Assembly: GCF_001280505.1 (NCBI RefSeq)
Contig: NZ_LBIO01000057.1
Span: forward strand, 1-64,000
DNA: 64,000 nucleotides
Direction of reading: 5' to 3'
From: Mangrovimonas sp. TPBH4
GTDB lineage: Bacteria > Bacteroidota > Bacteroidia > Flavobacteriales > Flavobacteriaceae
A model generated the notes under the pieces. It was not told the origin of the DNA. It was given only the letters and a program-made list of their open reading frames with translations, and did not search any database. Positions 15,081 to 55,651 of this stretch are shown one piece after another; position 1 is the first letter of the stretch, and each line of letters starts with the position of its first letter. Made by a program: the position numbers and the translations under genes.

Positions 15081-15126
15081 ATTACGGAATTCCGTAAAGG
15101 TTTTTAAAAGTAAAGTCCTACTATTG
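15081..15126 (+). promoter_or_regulatory. 18-bp palindrome plus -7 box, site A of module 1
   Basis: ATTACG-GAATTC-CGTAAA (15081-15098) is an 18-bp palindrome with 6-bp arms and a 6-bp spacer. Its centre lies 29.5 bases before a -7 box TACTATTG (15119-15126, one mismatch to TAnnTTTG). There is no good -33 element, so the palindrome likely binds an activator. The twin site at 17559 has the same sequence plan and spacing. Confidence 0.7.
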
Positions 15127-15131
15127 TATTC

Positions 15132-15204
15132 CCAATAGTTATTTGAGAACAAATAACCAACCAAACCTGATTTAAGACATGCCTTTTTGGGCGTGTCTTT
15201 TTTT
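15132..15204 (+). ncRNA. Candidate ~70-nt two-hairpin small RNA
   Basis: The segment between the palindrome-linked -7 box and a terminator contains no ATG. It folds into hairpin GTTATTTG-AGAA-CAAATAAC (15138-15157), then terminator stem AAGACATGCC (15174-15183) with GGCGTGTCTT (15190-15199) and T7. It could also be an attenuated leader of the downstream kinase gene. Confidence 0.5.
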
Positions 15205-17558: not shown

Positions 17559-17604
17559 ATTACGGGTATCCGTAAAAGATATTTTATGGCATGGCTTATT
17601 TTTG
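17559..17604 (+). promoter_or_regulatory. 18-bp palindrome plus -7 box, site B of module 1
   Basis: ATTACG-GGTATC-CGTAAA (17559-17576) differs from site A only in the central bases. A perfect -7 box TAttTTTG (17597-17604) begins 29.5 bases from its centre, exactly as at site A. It lies 15 bases after the response-regulator stop. Confidence 0.72.
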
Positions 17605-18145: not shown

Positions 18146-21100
18146 TTAATGCTGTACATAGAATTTTCCGGTATAATTACCTGCTTTTACAAAATAAAGC
18201 CCTTCTGGGTAATTAGTCACATCGATTGTTTTGCCCTTTCCTTTATGTACTTGATTTCCAAATTCGTTGAATATAAAGATATTCCCAGGATGATCTGTTT
18301 CCAAGGTTACATATTCGCTGGTTGGGTTAGGGTAGCATTTTACCGTATTTTGGGTGCCAAAAGCACTTACTTGGGGAGCCACCGTTGATGGAGCTACACA
18401 ATCAAAGCTAAATTCAAAGATTGAATCTGAACCTATATTTTGTTGCTTTTCTTGAGATGTACCACCATCATTGGTTGCTTTTACTTTGGTGTTTACAGGT
18501 AGCAGCTCTTCTCCATTAGGGTTAAATTCCATATAAGGTCCGTATCCGTAACGGTATACATATGTGCCGGATGTCCCACCGCATAAATTTGCAGTAGCTA
18601 ACACAGTTTGGAAGTCAAAACTAGAATCAGCGCCAGTGTTTTGCTGCATCTCTTTAGAGGTACCTTTGTAAGAAACCTGCACTTTGGTGTTTCCTGCCAA
18701 TAACTCTTCTCCTTCTATAGGGTTGAAAGATGTGAATGGGCCATAGCCAAATCTGTAATGAAAGGTAGCCTCCCCTGTAATATCTGCAGAAAGAGAAGTC
18801 GCAAGGTTTGCAGTTACATTTACAGTATTAAAGTCAAAAATTGCATCAACACCAGTGTTTTGTTGAATTTCCTTAGAAGTTCCTTTATGAGAAACTTTCA
18901 CTTTGGTATTTCCTGGTAATAACTCTACTCCGTAATCAGTCTCTAAAGTTGTGTAAGGACCATAACCAAATCTGTATTCAAAAATAGCATCTTCAGTAAT
19001 ATTAGTGGTAAGATTAGATTCAAATAGGCTAGCATTCACATATACAGTGCTGAAATCAAAATGAGAAGTCGCACCAGTATTTTGCTGCATTTCTTTAGAA
19101 GTTCCTTTATGAGAAACTTTTACCTTAGTATTTCCAGGTAACAATTCTTCTCCTGCCACAGGGTCGAAAGATGTGTAAGGGCCATACCCAAATCTGTATT
19201 CCCAATTATCAGCAGTGTTAGTGATATCGGAAGAAAGGGAAGTTTCAAGGTCTGCTGTCACATTTACCGTGTTAAAAATAAACATAGGGTTACTTTGAAT
19301 ATTTTGCTGGATCTCTTTAGAGGAACCTTTATAGCTAACTTTTACTTTAGTATTACTTGGGTTACCATCGATAAAGAACCAAATACCGTTCCCTGTGTTA
19401 TCTGTTCCTATTTCAGTATAGTTTCCATATCCAAAACGATAATGGAAGGTTCCATTGGTCAATCCAATGTCATCACTATCCTGAAGTTGAACAAAAATAG
19501 GCGCTTGTTCTTGGGCGCAACCATCAATGGCTACAGAGGTTTCCAAGTCAAGGTTCCCATCGTTATAGAATCTGAAATCATAGGTTCCTGGGAACATATA
19601 GGTGTTGCATGGTAAAGTCATCCAATGTGTACCGTAGTCATTGTACTTAACCAAATCATAATTGAAACATACACGAGTTGGATTGAATACAACCGTAGTA
19701 GACGGATCAACAGAAGGATCAGCCAATACAATAGATTTTGTTTGGTAGGTATAGATGTTTTTAGCTCTAAGGTCATAAGTTCCTGGGAACAATTCAATAG
19801 AAGCATTACCATCCACTCCTGTAGATTGTGGATCTAAATCTATCCAATGCGTACCGTAATCATTGTATTCTACTTGGATACCTTCAATAGGCATGTTGGT
19901 ATCACAATCTTCTAGATGAGCAACGGCCAAAGCTGTTTGGAATTCTACCATACCATCGGTAGCATCGTCTCCAGATTCGGTCAACTCTAGTGTGCCTTCC
20001 TGAACAGAATAGTTTTTAATTGATCTGAAGGTGTATTCGCCTGGAAATAATTCGATAGTGGCTTTACCATCTGTTCCTGTATACTGGGGATCTAAATCGA
20101 TCCAATGATTGCCATAATCGTTGTATTCGGTAGCAATACCTTCGAAGTCATCGCCATTAGAATCGGTTACGTGGGCTGTAAACGTAGCGGTTTGGAATTC
20201 TACTGTACCATCGTCTCCAGATGTAGTCACCTCTAGGTCTTTGGTTTGCGAAGAGTAATTTTTTGTAGCTCTAAAACTGTAGGTCCCAGGGAACAATTCG
20301 ATAGAGGCTTCTCCATTGGCATCGGTAAGATTTCCATTAGCATCATCAGATTGTGGATGTAAGTCAATCCAATGGTTGCCATAATCGTTATATTCGGTGG
20401 CAATACCTTCAAAAGGATCTCCATTGGTGTGTTTTACAAGAGCCGTAAAGGTCGTCGTTTGGAAGTCTACTGTTCCGGTATTTCCGGATGAGGCTATTTC
20501 CAAAGATTTTTCCAAAACAGAATAGTTCTTGATTGCTCTAAAGTTGTAATTTCCAGGGAACAATTCAATAGAGGCGTTACCAAAAGCATCTGTATATTGA
20601 GGATCCAAGTCTATCCAGTGGTTTCCATAGTCGTTGTATTTCGTAGCAATTCCTTCAAAGTCAGATCCGTCGGTATGCTCAACATGGGCCACATATTTGG
20701 AAGTTTGGAAGGTGATATAGTCTGGTCCAGTAGTAATATACTGGTTGGAGTAGTTCTTACTCGCACGGAATTTCCAAGAGCCTTCAAAGTCGGCATTCCA
20801 AAGGTAAAGTTCGCCATTGGCATCGGTGTTTCCTACCGTAACATAATTATTGCCGTAGTTGTTGCGCTTAATTGGGATATTAGGTAGTGGGCTACCATCT
20901 GCTTTTACGGTTTTAAAAAGGTAAACATTGCCAAAGTCTTCCGCCATATCGCAGGATACGGTAAGTGGCATGCTTAGAATGCCAAATTTAAAGTTATAAT
21001 CTCCAGTTAAAAGATAGCTAGGATTAGTGTAAGTGCCCCATCCATTTTGATAGAATTTTACCAGGCCGTCAAAATTGATGTTCAATTCAACAGCGGTAAA

Positions 21101-22366
21101 AGTTGGGCTGTTGTTTGAGGTTATATCAACACCACTTTGTGATTCAATGCCGTGGTTAAAATAGGTTCTAAAAGTATAGGTTCCAGGTAGTAGCTCTGTA
21201 GAAGAGTTGTTAGGGTAAAGTCCAGACCATCCGTTTTGGTAATGTTTTACTTGGCCCCCTTCTACCGCAGTGGTGCCATCGCAAGCCAATAACTTAGGGG
21301 TTACAGTTATGGTTTCAAAAAGTATTTCTTGATAGCCATCAGAAACATTGCCCTCATCAATTATCACACCGGACACACTTTGAACTCCTTTGTTGTAGTA
21401 AGTTCTAAAAGTATAATTTCCAGGCAATAATTCTTGAGGAGTTTCAGTATCATTGGAGTCATATAAGCCGGACCATCCATTTTGATAGTGTTTTGCTTGG
21501 CCACCTGTTAACTCTTCTCCGTTGGAATTCTTAAGTGTAGGTGCTACGCTAACAGTAACAAAAGGAACCTCTTGAGCAGTTCCGGCAATTGTTACACCAG
21601 ACAAGCTTTGTACCCCTTTGTTGTAATAAGTTGTAAAGGTATAATTTCCAGGTAGTAATTCTTGAGGAGCTTCAGGATCATTGGAGTCATACAAGCTAGA
21701 CCATCCGTTTTGATAATGTTTTACTTCTCCACCTGTTAACGCTCCTCCATCAGAGTTCTTAAGGGTTGGTGTTACGCTAACAGTAACAAAAGGAACCTCT
21801 TGAGCATTACCGGCAATTGCTACTCCAGACATGCTTTGCACCCCTTTGTTATAGTAAGTTCTAAAAGTGTAATTCCCTGGTAGTAATTCTTGAGAAGTGT
21901 TGGAATCATAAAGGCCAGACCATCCGTTTTGATAGTGTTTTACTTGGCCTTCTTCTAACTCTACATTGCTAGAATTTTTAAGAGCAGGAGTTACGGTTAC
22001 AGTACTAAAAATAACCTCTTGCGAAGCACCCGTAACAGCGGTATTGATGGATTGCACTCCCTTGTTGTAGTACATTTTAAAAGTAACATTTGTGGAAGAC
22101 GTTGTATAGCTAAATTCTCCACTTCCGTTGTTGGTAAGTGTCGACCAGCCAGAGTCGTATACTTTTAGGATTGCGGATCCAGCATTTGGAACTGCGGAGA
22201 CGTTGTCACTTTTTAATAATTTAATTGTGATGTCAGTTTGTGCCATTAATGCCGTGGCAGACGTTAAAAGCCAAATAAAGAGCATGTAGGGGAGTGAACG
22301 GTAAATAGATTTGGGGGTTTTGGTTGGCGGTTGGTTTAAGACGCCATGCGTAATGGATTTGTCCAT
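18146..22366 (-). CDS. Large secreted repeat protein with T9SS type-A sorting domain
   Basis: This 1406-residue protein begins with a basic N-terminal extension and signal peptide (cleavage after ATALMAQ, ~44). Three repeat families follow in order. The first is six copies around YQNGW plus ELLPGNYTFRTYYNKGVQS (~65-460). The second is six copies around YNDYGNHWIDLDPQ plus SIELFPGNYNFRAIKNYS (~495-920). The third is five copies around YRFGYGPYTSF plus LLPGNTKVKVSHKGTSKE (~970-1300). The C-terminal ~70 residues (CYPNPTSEYVTLE... ending GKFYVQH) are a T9SS type-A sorting domain. All three families share an aromatic-Gly core then a 'LxPGxYxFR' strand pair, suggesting one beta-sandwich fold. The function is unknown; adhesion or glycan binding is possible. 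Confidence 0.85.
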   Translation of the reverse strand: MDKSITHGVLNQPPTKTPKSIYRSLPYMLFIWLLTSATALMAQTDITIKLLKSDNVSAVPNAGSAILKVYDSGWSTLTNNGSGEFSYTTSSTNVTFKMYYNKGVQSINTAVTGASQEVIFSTVTVTPALKNSSNVELEEGQVKHYQNGWSGLYDSNTSQELLPGNYTFRTYYNKGVQSMSGVAIAGNAQEVPFVTVSVTPTLKNSDGGALTGGEVKHYQNGWSSLYDSNDPEAPQELLPGNYTFTTYYNKGVQSLSGVTIAGTAQEVPFVTVSVAPTLKNSNGEELTGGQAKHYQNGWSGLYDSNDTETPQELLPGNYTFRTYYNKGVQSVSGVIIDEGNVSDGYQEILFETITVTPKLLACDGTTAVEGGQVKHYQNGWSGLYPNNSSTELLPGTYTFRTYFNHGIESQSGVDITSNNSPTFTAVELNINFDGLVKFYQNGWGTYTNPSYLLTGDYNFKFGILSMPLTVSCDMAEDFGNVYLFKTVKADGSPLPNIPIKRNNYGNNYVTVGNTDANGELYLWNADFEGSWKFRASKNYSNQYITTGPDYITFQTSKYVAHVEHTDGSDFEGIATKYNDYGNHWIDLDPQYTDAFGNASIELFPGNYNFRAIKNYSVLEKSLEIASSGNTGTVDFQTTTFTALVKHTNGDPFEGIATEYNDYGNHWIDLHPQSDDANGNLTDANGEASIELFPGTYSFRATKNYSSQTKDLEVTTSGDDGTVEFQTATFTAHVTDSNGDDFEGIATEYNDYGNHWIDLDPQYTGTDGKATIELFPGEYTFRSIKNYSVQEGTLELTESGDDATDGMVEFQTALAVAHLEDCDTNMPIEGIQVEYNDYGTHWIDLDPQSTGVDGNASIELFPGTYDLRAKNIYTYQTKSIVLADPSVDPSTTVVFNPTRVCFNYDLVKYNDYGTHWMTLPCNTYMFPGTYDFRFYNDGNLDLETSVAIDGCAQEQAPIFVQLQDSDDIGLTNGTFHYRFGYGNYTEIGTDNTGNGIWFFIDGNPSNTKVKVSYKGSSKEIQQNIQSNPMFIFNTVNVTADLETSLSSDITNTADNWEYRFGYGPYTSFDPVAGEELLPGNTKVKVSHKGTSKEMQQNTGATSHFDFSTVYVNASLFESNLTTNITEDAIFEYRFGYGPYTTLETDYGVELLPGNTKVKVSHKGTSKEIQQNTGVDAIFDFNTVNVTANLATSLSADITGEATFHYRFGYGPFTSFNPIEGEELLAGNTKVQVSYKGTSKEMQQNTGADSSFDFQTVLATANLCGGTSGTYVYRYGYGPYMEFNPNGEELLPVNTKVKATNDGGTSQEKQQNIGSDSIFEFSFDCVAPSTVAPQVSAFGTQNTVKCYPNPTSEYVTLETDHPGNIFIFNEFGNQVHKGKGKTIDVTNYPEGLYFVKAGNYTGKFYVQH

Positions 22367-23524
22367 GAATAAATAATTAAGGATTAATAAATGAATCGAT
22401 AGCCATAGTTATATAGGGTCACTACAACATGGAAGTATAGAAAATGGCGGATTCAGGGCAAGAATCGTTACCTAATTAAAGTAGGGTGTGTAGGTGGTTT
22501 GGGGTAAGTGTTTTATTTACAGATTTTTATGTTTTTTAGGGGAAACAATAAACCTCTTGTGTAAATAAAATCAATAATTAAATACGATATGTCTTACAAA
22601 AGTTAAATAAAGGTTAATTGAGTTTTATCTCACAGTTTGTATAAAACTACGTTTCTGAGATATTAGAAAATATACCCATTACTAGGTATTTGTTTGCTTG
22701 ATTAAAAGAGAATGGATTGTATTAAAATTGAAGTGTAAGTTATTGGTTGTTAGTGTTTTTTTTTTTTTTTTGTGTGTAAATGGTGTATTGGAAAAGAAAA
22801 AATAGTAATTCTTAATAGGTTTTAAAAACGTCAGAAAGATCAGTTCAACGCATTTTTTGTGATGTAAGCGCGCCAACCTATAATAGCCAATTGAAGTTTG
22901 TTGGCTTTACTTAGGTCTAGTTGCTGTTTGCTAAAACTTGGAAGTAAGAGTTTATTCATTTTTGCGAGGCCCTTAAAAAGTTGTTTTTTCATTCCGCTAA
23001 GATATTTAGAACTTAAAAATAGTAAAACTTATTCTAGAACTAAGTTTCACTTAAAAGGTTCAAAATGGTTATTTGATAGAGAATATTATATCAATTAATA
23101 TTTTAGCAAGAGTGATCATAATGTTATGGTTTTAAGGGTTAATAAATAGATTAAATTCTTGATTGTTTTTTAAAGATATTAGATTGAATAAGTGATTTCC
23201 AAGCATTTTTAAGGAAATTAATGAAATTGACTTCTAATTTATAAGTGAAAAAATAGTATGTATTCCAAATTGAAATACTTATCTCTTCGAATATGTTTTT
23301 AAATGTAAGTCTCAATAGTTTTTTTATTATAAATTGTAATAATTCTAGGGGTTTTTTGAGGGGTTTTTTGAAATCCGAGAGGAGTTAAGTGTCAAAAAGG
23401 GTATTTTTTTAAGGATTTCATCTTTTTGGATACATGAAACGATGAAATCCTAGCCTTGAAAGAAGAGTTGATTTTGGAGAATGATAGTATGCTTTTAGAT
23501 GGTTTAAGAGAGGAAGGGTGAAGT
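22367..23524. other. Long intergenic region without a convincing gene
   Basis: About 1.15 kb of AT-rich DNA lies upstream of the repeat-protein gene. It contains a 16-T homopolymer (22756-22771) and a 10-bp perfect inverted repeat GGATTTCATC / GATGAAATCC (23413-23422, 23441-23450) with an 18-base loop. Two ORFs of 64-66 codons are low-complexity and not credible. Regulatory sequence for the 18146-22366 gene probably lies here. Confidence 0.6.
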
Positions 23525-52272: not shown

Positions 52273-52365
52273 TTTTATTGCTTTGATGTTCTATCAAAGG
52301 TAATCAATTTTAAAGAAATTAAATTTGATTGTAAGCAATATTGTAGGTGTTTTATTATGCAAAAA

Positions 52366-52383
52366 ATCCCCGAGATCGGGGAT
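52366..52383. promoter_or_regulatory. 18-bp palindrome, module 2 (also a possible terminator)
   Basis: ATCCCC-GAGATC-GGGGAT fits the 6-N6-6 pattern of module 2. On the minus strand it is followed by T6, so it could also terminate the transcript coming from 52508. Confidence 0.55.
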
Positions 52384-52417
52384 TTAATTAGCTAAAAACA
52401 ATTGAATGTATAAAAAT

Positions 52418-52501
52418 TTATACTGCTACCACACTACAGGTTAATGGAGAAGGGGTCTTTAGCATTTGGTTGGTTGTTAAAGATCTTACTGCGATTAGCA
52501 T
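52418..52501 (-). CDS. Possible 27-codon ORF on a palindrome-controlled transcript
   Basis: ATG at 52501 is only ~7 bases from the expected start of the short minus-strand transcript. The ORF (MLIAVRSLTTNQMLK...) may be chance, in which case the ~125-base transcript (about 52508 to 52366) is noncoding. I do not recognise the peptide. Confidence 0.3.
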   Translation of the reverse strand: MLIAVRSLTTNQMLKTPSPLTCSVVAV

Positions 52502-52513
52502 TTAAGAACAATG

Positions 52514-52561
52514 TAAAGATACTTGTACATGTTGTATTAAAAAATCCCCTATATAGGGGAT
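52514..52561 (-). promoter_or_regulatory. 18-bp palindrome plus -7 box, site B of module 2
   Basis: ATCCCC-TATATA-GGGGAT (52544-52561) is perfect. On the minus strand a -7-like box TATCTTTA (52521-52514) begins 31.5 bases from its centre, the same distance as at site A. It may double as the terminator of the RNA coming from 52677. Confidence 0.6.
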
Positions 52562-52677
52562 TTTTGATAGTTGAAAGCGTAAAATATTCCCTTCAATCTA
52601 AACGATGTTTCAACTAAAGTGCTCAAAAATATATTTTGAGCGAGTTTAGATTGACCCGAAGGCATTGTTCTAAATAG
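52539..52677 (-). ncRNA. Candidate pseudoknotted small RNA
   Basis: This minus-strand transcript would start ~6 bases after the box at 52690-52683. P1 is TCAATCTAAAC (52654-52644) with GTTTAGATTGA (52603-52593). P2 is GCTCAAAA (52641-52634) with TTTTGAGC (52628-52621). P3 is TAGTTGAAA (52616-52608), inside the P1 loop, pairing perfectly with TTTCAACTA (52576-52568) outside it, a pseudoknot. It ends in the stem ATCCCC/GGGGAT and a T-run. A 38-codon ORF (52665-52549) also crosses it. Confidence 0.5.
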
Positions 52678-52682
52678 CGAAG

Positions 52683-52730
52683 TAAAACTAGCAAACGCCA
52701 CTATGTAAAACCATCCGTAATACTGGGGAT
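52683..52730 (-). promoter_or_regulatory. 18-bp palindrome plus -7 box, site A of module 2
   Basis: ATCCGT-AATACT-GGGGAT (52713-52730), one imperfect arm, lies 3 bases from the response-regulator stop. The box TAGTTTTA (52690-52683, minus) begins 31.5 bases from its centre. Confidence 0.55.
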
Positions 52731-52733
52731 ATT

Positions 52734-53357
52734 TTAAAAGCGGTATTTTTTTTCAAGTGCATAGCGCATCAATTCCCCTTTGCCCTGAAGCCCTAGAATC
52801 TTGATCATATTTTTACGATGGGTTTCCACAGTACGCACTCCTATAAAGAGTTCTTCTGCAATTTCTCTGGAGGTTTTACCTTGTGCAACGAGTTCCAAGA
52901 TTTCTATTTGCCGCTTGGTAAGGATGCCTTTTTTTGATGGACTTTGAGATGAATTTAAGGCATTGGTATTGATGTTGGCATCAAAATAATTGTTGCCTTC
53001 GGCTACGGATCTAATTGCCGATAGCACCTCGGTAAGTGGGGAGTTTTTTAGAAGATAACCAGAAGCTCCCGCTTCTAACATTTGTGAGATGGCTTCAGTT
53101 TGATCAAACATGGAAAAAGCCAGGATGTTGGTGTCTGGATATTGAGTTTTTATCTGTTTGGTAGCTTCAATACCGTCCATTATGGGCATTCTAATGTCTG
53201 TTAGAATTACGTTTGGATGTTTGCTATGCACAATTTCCAAAAGCTTTTCGCCGTCATTGGCGGTACCAACTACAACAATGTCTTTTTCAAATTCCAAAAG
53301 TAATTGTATGCCATCTATCAGGGACTGGTGGTCTTCTGCAATTGCTAATCGTATCAT
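52734..53357 (-). CDS. NarL/LuxR-type response regulator
   Basis: This 207-residue protein has a receiver with Glu8-Asp9, phospho-acceptor Asp54 (LTDIRMP), a conserved Ser/Thr in LAFSMFD, and Lys104 (YLLKNSP). The LuxR-type HTH (~145-205) has TKRQIEILELVAQGKTSREIAEELFIGVRTVETHRKNM. It overlaps the kinase gene by 4 bases. Likely targets are the 18-bp ATCCCC-N6-GGGGAT sites around the operon (inference from position). Confidence 0.95.
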   Translation of the reverse strand: MIRLAIAEDHQSLIDGIQLLLEFEKDIVVVGTANDGEKLLEIVHSKHPNVILTDIRMPIMDGIEATKQIKTQYPDTNILAFSMFDQTEAISQMLEAGASGYLLKNSPLTEVLSAIRSVAEGNNYFDANINTNALNSSQSPSKKGILTKRQIEILELVAQGKTSREIAEELFIGVRTVETHRKNMIKILGLQGKGELMRYALEKKYRF

Positions 53358-55129
53358 AGGGGAATATCAATAATTATGGTGGTTCCTTTTTTTGGTTCAG
53401 ATTCTATGGCCATGGAGCCATGGAGGTGGTCTACGCGCTTATCGATGCTGCCAAGTCCCATGCCATCGCTCTTTGAAGTAATTTTGGTAGGGTTGAAACC
53501 TTTTCCGTTGTCTTCAACCATGATGTTCAAGCTGTCATCGTGGTTGGTTAAATGGATTGTGATTTCGGAGGCTTCAGCGTGTTTGATGACGTTGGTTGTC
53601 AATTCCTGGATGATTCTAAAAATGGTAAGTTCCAAACTGTTTTCCAGTCTATTTTCCAAACCATGGTCGATGACTTCTATAGAAATTTTATTGGCATAAG
53701 ATATTTTGTCTGCCATTTGCTGAACGGCCTTGAGAAGCCCTTGCTTGGCTATAACTCCAGAATTTTTGGCATGGGCAATAGAGCGAACCTTGTTATAAGC
53801 TTCATCGATTAGCGTATTGGTCCTTTCAAAGAGTTCTTGGTTTTGGTGACCATTTAAGCTATTAAAATGCAGTTTTACGTTGGCCATTAGTCCGCCAAGA
53901 TCATCATGCAGATCGTTGGCAATACGCAAGCGCTCTTTTTCTTGGCCTTCAATCATGGCGTCAATAGCTTTGAGTTCCTGCTCCTTTAAAACAGTTGCCA
54001 ATTTTTGTGTTTGCAGTTCCTTTTCATTTTCCGCCAACTTTTGCTTTCTACGTGTATTTTTTTGAATCAGGAAGGATACGATAGCCACTGAAATTAAAAG
54101 TACGGTAGCTAGAATTGATAAATTTCGGTTTCGTTTTCTCGCTGCTTCCGCTTCTAGATTATCGGCTCGTAATTTTTCATTTTCGTAGCGTGCTTCTACT
54201 TCAGTAATAGAGGCATTTTGGTCTTTAAGGTTGATGACTTTCTCAATAGAGTCTGATTTGGAAAAGTACTTATGGGCATTTTTGAAGTCGTTCAATTCAA
54301 CGTAAGTAGAATCAATATTTTTATAGAGTGTAAGGTAGTATTTATGGGCTTGCTTGGATAAGTCCATATTTTCTGCCATCCTGTAATACTCTAATGCTTT
54401 TGGGTAATTTTCGGCACGACGATAATAATTTCCCAAATTATTACAAAAGGCGAATCTGTAATTTAAATTTTTCTTTCCTGTGGGGTCTTGATCCAAAAGT
54501 TTTAGGGCCGCTTTGGTTATAATTATTGCCGAATCCTGATCCTTGTAAACCTTACCGTGTATGGCAGCTAAATTGGACAAAATCCCAATTTGTATTTTAG
54601 TACTATCCATATCTCTGAAGTAGGAAAGGGCTTTGTTATAATAATGCTTTGCAGAGTCTACTTCTTGAGCATTGTGAAATGAGATGGCTTTTTGATTGGC
54701 AATAGCTCCAAGCCATTTATCGCTTTTATGTTCTTGGGCGTATTCTATCAGGTTGTTGAGATACATCTCTTTATTGGACTCCAAATTTTTTTGAGAATCC
54801 AATAAGGAATAAATTTCATAATTGGTTTCGGCAATTCTCTCTTCTTGTTGATGGAGGGTAAAGGATTTTAATGCTTTTTTAAAATATAAAAAAGCAGAAT
54901 CTTCTTTATTGGAGTTATTATAAGCTTTTGCTAAAGCTAATTGGTAGCTCCCTTTAGCTGGAGATTTGCTAGGGATGTTATCAATGGTTTTACGGTATTG
55001 TATAATGGCCTCGTAATTCTCATTCTTCTTTAAGGAATCAAGGGTATGTAATAAATTTTGCTCCTGGCCAAAACATAGGGCGGTCAGGAGCAAAAACAAC
55101 AAAGTTGTGGAACTGAAAATTTTGTTCAT
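53354..55129 (-). CDS. TPR-containing sensor histidine kinase
   Basis: This 591-residue protein has a signal peptide (to ~21, CFGQ), a periplasmic TPR array (~40-300), and a membrane helix (~339-355) followed by a coiled-coil. The HisKA_3 domain has acceptor LHDDLGG (His408), and the HATPase_c domain has N-box TTNVIKHAEA, G-box DNGKGF and GMGLGSI. It pairs with the overlapping LuxR-type regulator. Its start codon overlaps the stop of the upstream gene (TAATG), so translation is coupled. Confidence 0.94.
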   Translation of the reverse strand: MNKIFSSTTLLFLLLTALCFGQEQNLLHTLDSLKKNENYEAIIQYRKTIDNIPSKSPAKGSYQLALAKAYNNSNKEDSAFLYFKKALKSFTLHQQEERIAETNYEIYSLLDSQKNLESNKEMYLNNLIEYAQEHKSDKWLGAIANQKAISFHNAQEVDSAKHYYNKALSYFRDMDSTKIQIGILSNLAAIHGKVYKDQDSAIIITKAALKLLDQDPTGKKNLNYRFAFCNNLGNYYRRAENYPKALEYYRMAENMDLSKQAHKYYLTLYKNIDSTYVELNDFKNAHKYFSKSDSIEKVINLKDQNASITEVEARYENEKLRADNLEAEAARKRNRNLSILATVLLISVAIVSFLIQKNTRRKQKLAENEKELQTQKLATVLKEQELKAIDAMIEGQEKERLRIANDLHDDLGGLMANVKLHFNSLNGHQNQELFERTNTLIDEAYNKVRSIAHAKNSGVIAKQGLLKAVQQMADKISYANKISIEVIDHGLENRLENSLELTIFRIIQELTTNVIKHAEASEITIHLTNHDDSLNIMVEDNGKGFNPTKITSKSDGMGLGSIDKRVDHLHGSMAIESEPKKGTTIIIDIPL

Positions 55130-55569
55130 TAAGCGTATTGAATAATAATATCTCCATCAATTTCTTTAACACCATTAGGCATTGGAAGGGGAGATGGATA
55201 GTTGCTTCCAAAAGAAGCAACTTGGTTTTTTAGGGTTGATATTGCAGAGCTAGAATTTGGATCTAGAAAAACATATACAATTAATTTGTCACGAAGGTTA
55301 GATATCGGAAAACCTGAAACAGAACTTAAATCAATTTCCATTTCAATAAGTCCAACCATGGGAGAAGTTGGAGTAGAAGTGGCTCCTGTTATTTCAATTG
55401 CAAGCGCGCAAAGGCTTGTACTAGAAATATTAGTTTCTGCAGCCGAAAGTCCTCTGTCCGTAACTGGGATTTGTAGAAATAATTTTTTTGATGAAGAATC
55501 AAAATAGTTCGTTGGTGTAATTCCGTAACGTTTGATGTCGCTTAAGGGAATAAATCTTTGGGTAGCCAT
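55129..55569 (-). CDS. Unknown protein coupled to the kinase operon
   Basis: This 146-residue protein has no signal peptide or membrane helix and is beta-strand-rich, beginning MATQRFIPLSDIKRYGITPTNYFD. There is a Pro/Ser/Thr loop near the middle and a terminal DGDIIIQYA. It is not recognised. It shares the TAATG stop/start overlap with the histidine kinase and is the first gene of the operon, so it probably works with the kinase. It is preceded by an 18-bp palindrome. Confidence 0.75.
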   Translation of the reverse strand: MATQRFIPLSDIKRYGITPTNYFDSSSKKLFLQIPVTDRGLSAAETNISSTSLCALAIEITGATSTPTSPMVGLIEMEIDLSSVSGFPISNLRDKLIVYVFLDPNSSSAISTLKNQVASFGSNYPSPLPMPNGVKEIDGDIIIQYA

Positions 55570-55633
55570 AAAAAGTTGGTTTTAGTTAAGTTAAACAATA
55601 TTGCGAAATAACACCATACTACAATGTCAAACC

Positions 55634-55651
55634 ATCCCCGATACTAGGGAT
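55634..55651 (-). promoter_or_regulatory. 18-bp palindrome upstream of the kinase operon
   Basis: ATCCCC-GATACT-AGGGAT (one imperfect base pair) lies 65 bases upstream of the first gene. This is consistent with autoregulation by the LuxR-type regulator. The -7 box here is weak (TATTTCGC). Confidence 0.55.

Follow-up and report, generated by a model that had tools for sequence, protein, structure and literature searches.

A sensor kinase and a NarL/LuxR-type response regulator in a flavobacterial genome are surrounded by four palindromes of one form, which raises the question of what the regulator could control through them, and whether the same sites could also end transcripts. The 4.15-Mb genome (G000) is that of a bacterium near Psychroserpens and other Flavobacteriaceae. 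The locus was analysed within a stretch of 64,000 nucleotides, referred to here as the window, and was compared with the related species G001 and G002 as well as with other genera of the family.

The operon and its palindromes

The operon (Table 1) begins with a gene for a 146-aa protein that has no Pfam or NCBIfam match and the homologues of which are rare, occurring in 4 of 299 family genomes. In some other genera these homologues are lipoproteins; in this genus the N-terminus carries no lipoprotein signal. The predicted fold is of moderate quality (pLDDT 71) and gave no significant match in the PDB. The kinase has the make-up of a HisKA_3 sensor kinase, with the HisKA_3 dimerisation domain and HATPase_c in Pfam, and the regulator that of the NarL/FixJ type (PF00072, 94 bits; PF00196, 60 bits), with orthologues of 54-77% identity in named Flavobacteriaceae. 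A TPR sensor kinase is likewise combined with a LuxR-type regulator in FimS/FimR of Porphyromonas gingivalis, also of the Bacteroidota, but the present kinase is not a FimS orthologue (34.8 bits against a FimS cut-off of 600). Between the regulator and a SRPBCC/GyrI-like gene downstream lie approximately 460 bases without a convincing protein gene.

Table 1. Positions of the operon genes, putative regulatory sites and predicted small RNAs in the window
Feature	Position	Strand	Remarks
146-aa protein, operon gene 1	55129..55569	-	alignment with lipoproteins of L011 and L069
TPR sensor histidine kinase	53354..55129	-	Pfam: HisKA_3 and HATPase_c
NarL/LuxR-type response regulator	52734..53357	-	Pfam: Response_reg and GerE
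Putative operator of operon promoter (autoregulation)	55634..55651		position upstream of the operon and layout shared with G001 and orthologous loci
Weak -7 box TTATTTCG	55604..55611	-	22 nt after the 55634 operator; TTAATTCG in G001
Putative operator of sRNA1 promoter	52713..52730		conserved in G001
-7 box TAGTTTTA of putative sRNA1 promoter	52683..52690	-	
Predicted sRNA1, ~140 nt	52539..52678	-	start inferred from -7 box at -12 to -5; fold z-score -4.5
Predicted sRNA1 intrinsic terminator and probable sRNA2 operator	52544..52561		A-tract, 18-bp palindrome, T-tract
-7 box TATCTTTA of putative sRNA2 promoter	52514..52521	-	three species: TATCTTTA / TATCTTTA / TATATTTA
Predicted sRNA2, ~149 nt	52361..52509	-	fold z-score -3.6
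Predicted sRNA2 intrinsic terminator	52366..52383		T-tract; no conserved -7 box at 22 nt
Candidate distant target, ATACCTAGTAATGGGTAT + 22 nt + TAGTTTTA	22672..22689	-	276 nt before secreted-protein gene

The preliminary description had placed four sites of the type ATCCCC-N6-GGGGAT around the module, and all four are present, with 0 mismatches at 52366 and 52544, 1 at 55634 and 2 at 52713. The window contains two exact palindromes, compared to 0 in 40 shuffled windows, which rules out a chance origin of this pair. At up to one mismatch there are three (shuffle mean 0.12) and at up to two mismatches four (shuffle mean 1.85); the imperfect sites at 52713 and 55634 are thus significant only by position and conservation, not by the motif alone. 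The relaxed form ATCCSYN6RSGGAT is found at 5 places in the 4.15-Mb genome, 4 of which are these module sites. A TAnnTTTA box starting 31.5 bases from the palindrome centre on the minus strand, as also described, is found at 52544 (TATCTTTA after 22 nt) and at 52713 (TAGTTTTA after 22 nt). The combination of palindrome, 22 nt and TAnnTTTR occurs three times in the window, the third at 22672, and 0 times in the 40 shuffles. In flavobacteria the -7 box lies at -12 to -5 (PMC9723704), so that the operator centre would lie at approximately -43.5.

An E. coli-type promoter scan is ill-suited to flavobacterial -33/-7 promoters. Neither 52544 nor 52366 was picked up by the terminator scan, the probable reason being that the A/T tracts of these sites base-pair as part of the stem. 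The open-access literature gave no report of this palindrome site or of merged operator-terminators in flavobacteria.

The half-site is, as the preliminary description held, unlike that of a further module in the window (module 1), which reads TTACGG. The module 1 palindromes TTACGGAATTCCGTAA (15082-15097) and TTACGGGTATCCGTAA (17560-17575), of the form TTACGG-N4-CCGTAA, flank a TPR-kinase/DUF5932-regulator pair, one before and one after. Behind each of them lies a short segment that is devoid of ORFs and has a hairpin resembling a terminator. Elsewhere in the genome, a paralogous NarL-type regulator (G000:C36, ~154797-155194; L173 and L176, also L178 and L186) has two palindromes ATACGTAGnnCTACGTAT directly downstream, each 22 nt before a box. 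These two units lead to two 33-aa membrane micro-ORFs (MKSKFTFVNL..., MKNSYEHQHK...), which are conserved in three species and are probably unannotated. Since the paralogue shares the 22-nt spacing, this spacing seems to be general for such regulators here.

Two conserved short segments downstream of the regulator

Short transcripts of ~125-140 bases had been proposed for the region behind the regulator. Conservation supports the two transcripts, though their predicted lengths (~140 and ~149 nt) are slightly greater. The whole arrangement is present in synteny in G001, where the sRNA1 body is 95.7% and sRNA2 86% identical to G000, compared to 45% at the fourfold sites of seven genes. In G002, 115 of 123 bases of sRNA2 are identical, against 36% at the fourfold sites of the neighbouring gene. 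Such identity, far above that of fourfold sites, indicates that both short segments are under strong selection, and judged by this conservation they are real genes, from which both transcripts would be produced. Each has its own promoter-like box, a terminator, no conserved reading frame and a sequence that by comparison is under selection. The spacer before the sRNA2 box, by contrast, is at neutral level (47% identity between G000 and G001) with its length kept.

Neither segment belongs to a known RNA family, as no family in Rfam 15 reached its gathering score in the region, and a conserved micro-protein was rejected for both as no reading frame is conserved. Among the 299 family genomes, both sRNAs are confined to this genus, with the other matches being short terminator or composition hits. 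A conserved long-range helix in sRNA2 (GCUAAA/UUUAGC) surrounds C-rich unpaired bases, while sRNA1 has a hairpin with a loop of varying length and can form two competing, crossing helices of nearly equal energy (-36.2 and -38.3 kcal/mol). That these compete is speculation without covariation support. The case for sRNA1 draws on two species only, with no compensatory changes between them, and this counts against the model proposed below. As a default guess, the sRNAs would probably act by pairing with mRNAs. Like them, Rfp18 of Flavobacterium psychrophilum is an independent, structured and conserved flavobacterial sRNA, a likeness in these general traits, but the excerpted part of PMC9723704 mentions no dedicated regulator next to it.

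The motif AACCAACCA occurs both in sRNA2 (52467-52475) and in a module 1 short segment (15155-15163), and a related AC-rich stretch precedes the terminator of the first micro-ORF transcript of the paralogous regulator. It is perhaps a shared RNA-binding site, with weak statistics (4 in the window, 1.3 expected).

The sister species G002 is without the operon and without the greater, 5' part of sRNA1. The loss is clean, between conserved neighbours (L035, 1420-1760), and a search of the rest of G002 gave nothing close to the regulator, the best match being 40% identical. Still present in G002 are the sRNA1 end, including the terminator formed by the 52544 palindrome, as well as sRNA2 and its box TATATTTA. 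Hence sRNA2 cannot strictly need this regulator, and in G002 it would either be expressed without it or have escaped its control.

Probable operators and terminators in the orthologous loci

The comparison was extended to 17 loci outside the genus, comprising regulator orthologues from named genomes and the distant locus L011. These contain 39 palindromes ATMCC-N8-GGKAT, of which 27 are followed by a box NAnnTTTR after exactly 22 nt and 33 after 21-23 nt. Other offsets gave 0 or 1 box and the opposite-strand control 0-2 per offset (binomial probability of the 27 of 39 ~3e-48, ignoring the kinship of the loci). In 15 whole genomes the full pattern matched 47 times, compared to once for the reversed pattern. 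Nearly all orthologous loci have a putative operator ahead of the operon, and such sites are also found at the junctions before downstream genes. The box of the first gene is in many cases CAnnTTTG instead of TAnnTTTG. At home, the 52713 palindrome starts 3 nt past the stop codon of the regulator, and a similar palindrome takes the same place in L063, L065, L066, L067, L072, L073 and L074. The genes after the regulator vary between genomes and mostly encode secreted proteins or lipoproteins: several encode a type IX sorting domain, one is trypsin-like, and others resemble lipoproteins or outer-membrane proteins.

The recurrence of the box-at-22 unit in 17 orthologous loci, before both the operon and its cargo genes, makes 55634 and 52713 very probable operators of the NarL-type regulator. 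The comparison thus favours the fixed promoter spacing and the autoregulation site upstream of the first gene that had been suggested from the window.

That the regulator reads a half-site of its own, another earlier suggestion, is supported by a correlated change in site and protein. Other genera have A at position 3 in 39 of 42 half-sites, whereas this genus has C there in 7 of 8 (P 3e-6, with kinship ignored and only sites without T-tracts taken from the other genera). The recognition helix reads HTVDTHRKN in most other regulators, STVDTHRKN or TTVDTHRKN in the most distant ones and RTVETHRKN here, so that the A-to-C change is accompanied by H-to-R and D-to-E. Since site and protein have changed together, the regulator is likely to be the one that reads these sites. 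The half-site at 22672 is of the ATACC form seen in other genera instead of the ATCCC form that this genus has; the gene near it (18146-22366) codes for a repeat protein of 1406 aa that carries a type IX sorting tail, and the site is a possible distant target of this regulator.

On the minus strand, 52544 and 52366 have G+C stems with TTTTTT tails, which are kept in G001 and G002. Flanked by A- and T-tracts, the two palindromes would make strong terminators, 52544 for sRNA1 and 52366 for sRNA2. The idea that palindromes double as operator and terminator probably holds for one of the two. At 52366, an operator function was rejected: the position 22 nt further on shows no conserved box, and a separate box, TACCTTTG, conserved in three species, serves the gene that follows, which leaves this site as a terminator only. 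At 52544, a box lies 22 nt beyond the palindrome in G000, G001 and G002, and the merger is repeated in the orthologous loci: among T-tailed palindromes, 12 of 19 in these loci have a box at exactly 22 nt, compared to 0 of 29 elsewhere in the genomes (P 7e-7; the 29 counted by eye). Just as 52544 lies between two RNAs, many of the merged sites are located between two genes, a short distance past the stop codon of the first, and they support 52544 as an operator-terminator. Its geometry and this recurrence thus speak for an operator, while its retention with box and sRNA2 in the species without the regulator speaks against; on balance, 52544 is probably the operator for sRNA2 as well as the terminator of sRNA1. 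The T-tract in some merged sites may merely be a T-rich -33 element.

Proposed mode of action and competing readings

The best explanation, which we consider fairly probable, is a NarL-type module that regulates itself and has a slot for exchangeable cargo, which here would hold small RNAs, with 52544 as a merged site. The TPR kinase would phosphorylate the regulator, a dimer of which would bind the 18-bp palindrome 22 nt before the -7 box, centred at approximately -43.5 and against the -33 region, and would activate transcription, activation rather than repression being what we infer. It would act on its own operon through 55634 and on the genes directly downstream. Thereby sRNA1 would be driven from 52713 and end at 52544, which would probably also serve as operator for sRNA2, the latter ending at the plain terminator 52366. 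Anatomy, spacing, conservation and family-wide recurrence are seen in the sequence, and binding by the regulator is proposed. The weak -7 box of the operon's own promoter counts against the model. In domain make-up, dimer-type palindromic operator and activator-like position near -43, the module resembles NarL/FixJ two-component systems with HisKA_3 kinases, from which it would differ in having two sRNA genes among its outputs and operators at terminators between tandem genes.

A substantial possibility, though one we lean against, is that only 55634 and 52713 are operators, with 52544 and 52366 as ordinary terminators, a constitutive sRNA2 promoter and an accidental spacing. This would suit the retention of terminator, box and sRNA2 in G002, the variable centre of 52544 (TATATA, TTTTTT and TATAAA in the three species) and the plain ATCCC terminators found elsewhere in genomes. 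It does not account for a 22-nt spacing that is free of indels in three species although the spacer is neutral, nor for the restriction of T-tailed palindromes with a box at 22 nt to the loci of this regulator. The regulator could also be a repressor that covers the -33 region and blocks RNA polymerase until a signal arrives or leaves, as the 3' half of the palindrome adjoins that region and both sRNA promoter boxes are near consensus. Sequence alone does not distinguish activation from repression, but the latter seems unlikely given the fixed one-register spacing across many genera, which is activator-like, the poor -7 box of the autoregulated promoter and the CAnnTTTG boxes of many first genes. 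One-register spacing is typical of activators that touch the polymerase (class II activation).

The nature of the short segments can also be read differently. That sRNA1 is a messenger for a micro-protein would agree with its first 13 codons MPSGQSKLAQNIF, common to both species, and with the two conserved 33-aa membrane micro-proteins that the paralogous regulator would drive from the same kind of promoter. This appears improbable, however, since a 2-nt difference in hairpin-loop length shifts the frame (38 codons in G000, 17 in G001) while the bases beyond stay conserved. Finally, the segments could be remnants of cargo genes rather than functional RNAs, as the same slot in other genera is occupied by protein genes, a different set in each genome, but the excess of their identity over fourfold sites and the survival of sRNA2 in G002 despite the loss of the operon make this highly implausible.

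What would set the activating module apart are its sRNA outputs and those palindromes at which one transcript stops and the next is probably switched on. The analysis yields a regulator with a proposed operator, the geometry of which can be tested, and two new sRNA genes, in a family of environmental bacteria in which few regulators have known sites. The merged terminator-operator is directly testable, and G002, in which the regulator is gone and sRNA2 kept, is a natural control. More tentatively, and a little short of an even chance in our view, the arrangement may be a family-wide cassette, in which a single palindrome serves one gene as its intrinsic terminator and the following gene as its activator site. 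Genera would then swap the cargo, but keep the regulator, its genomic location and the 22-nt geometry. If so, any gene or sRNA inserted at a junction would be insulated from its neighbour and placed under the same two-component system, and binding of the regulator could also alter terminator read-through.
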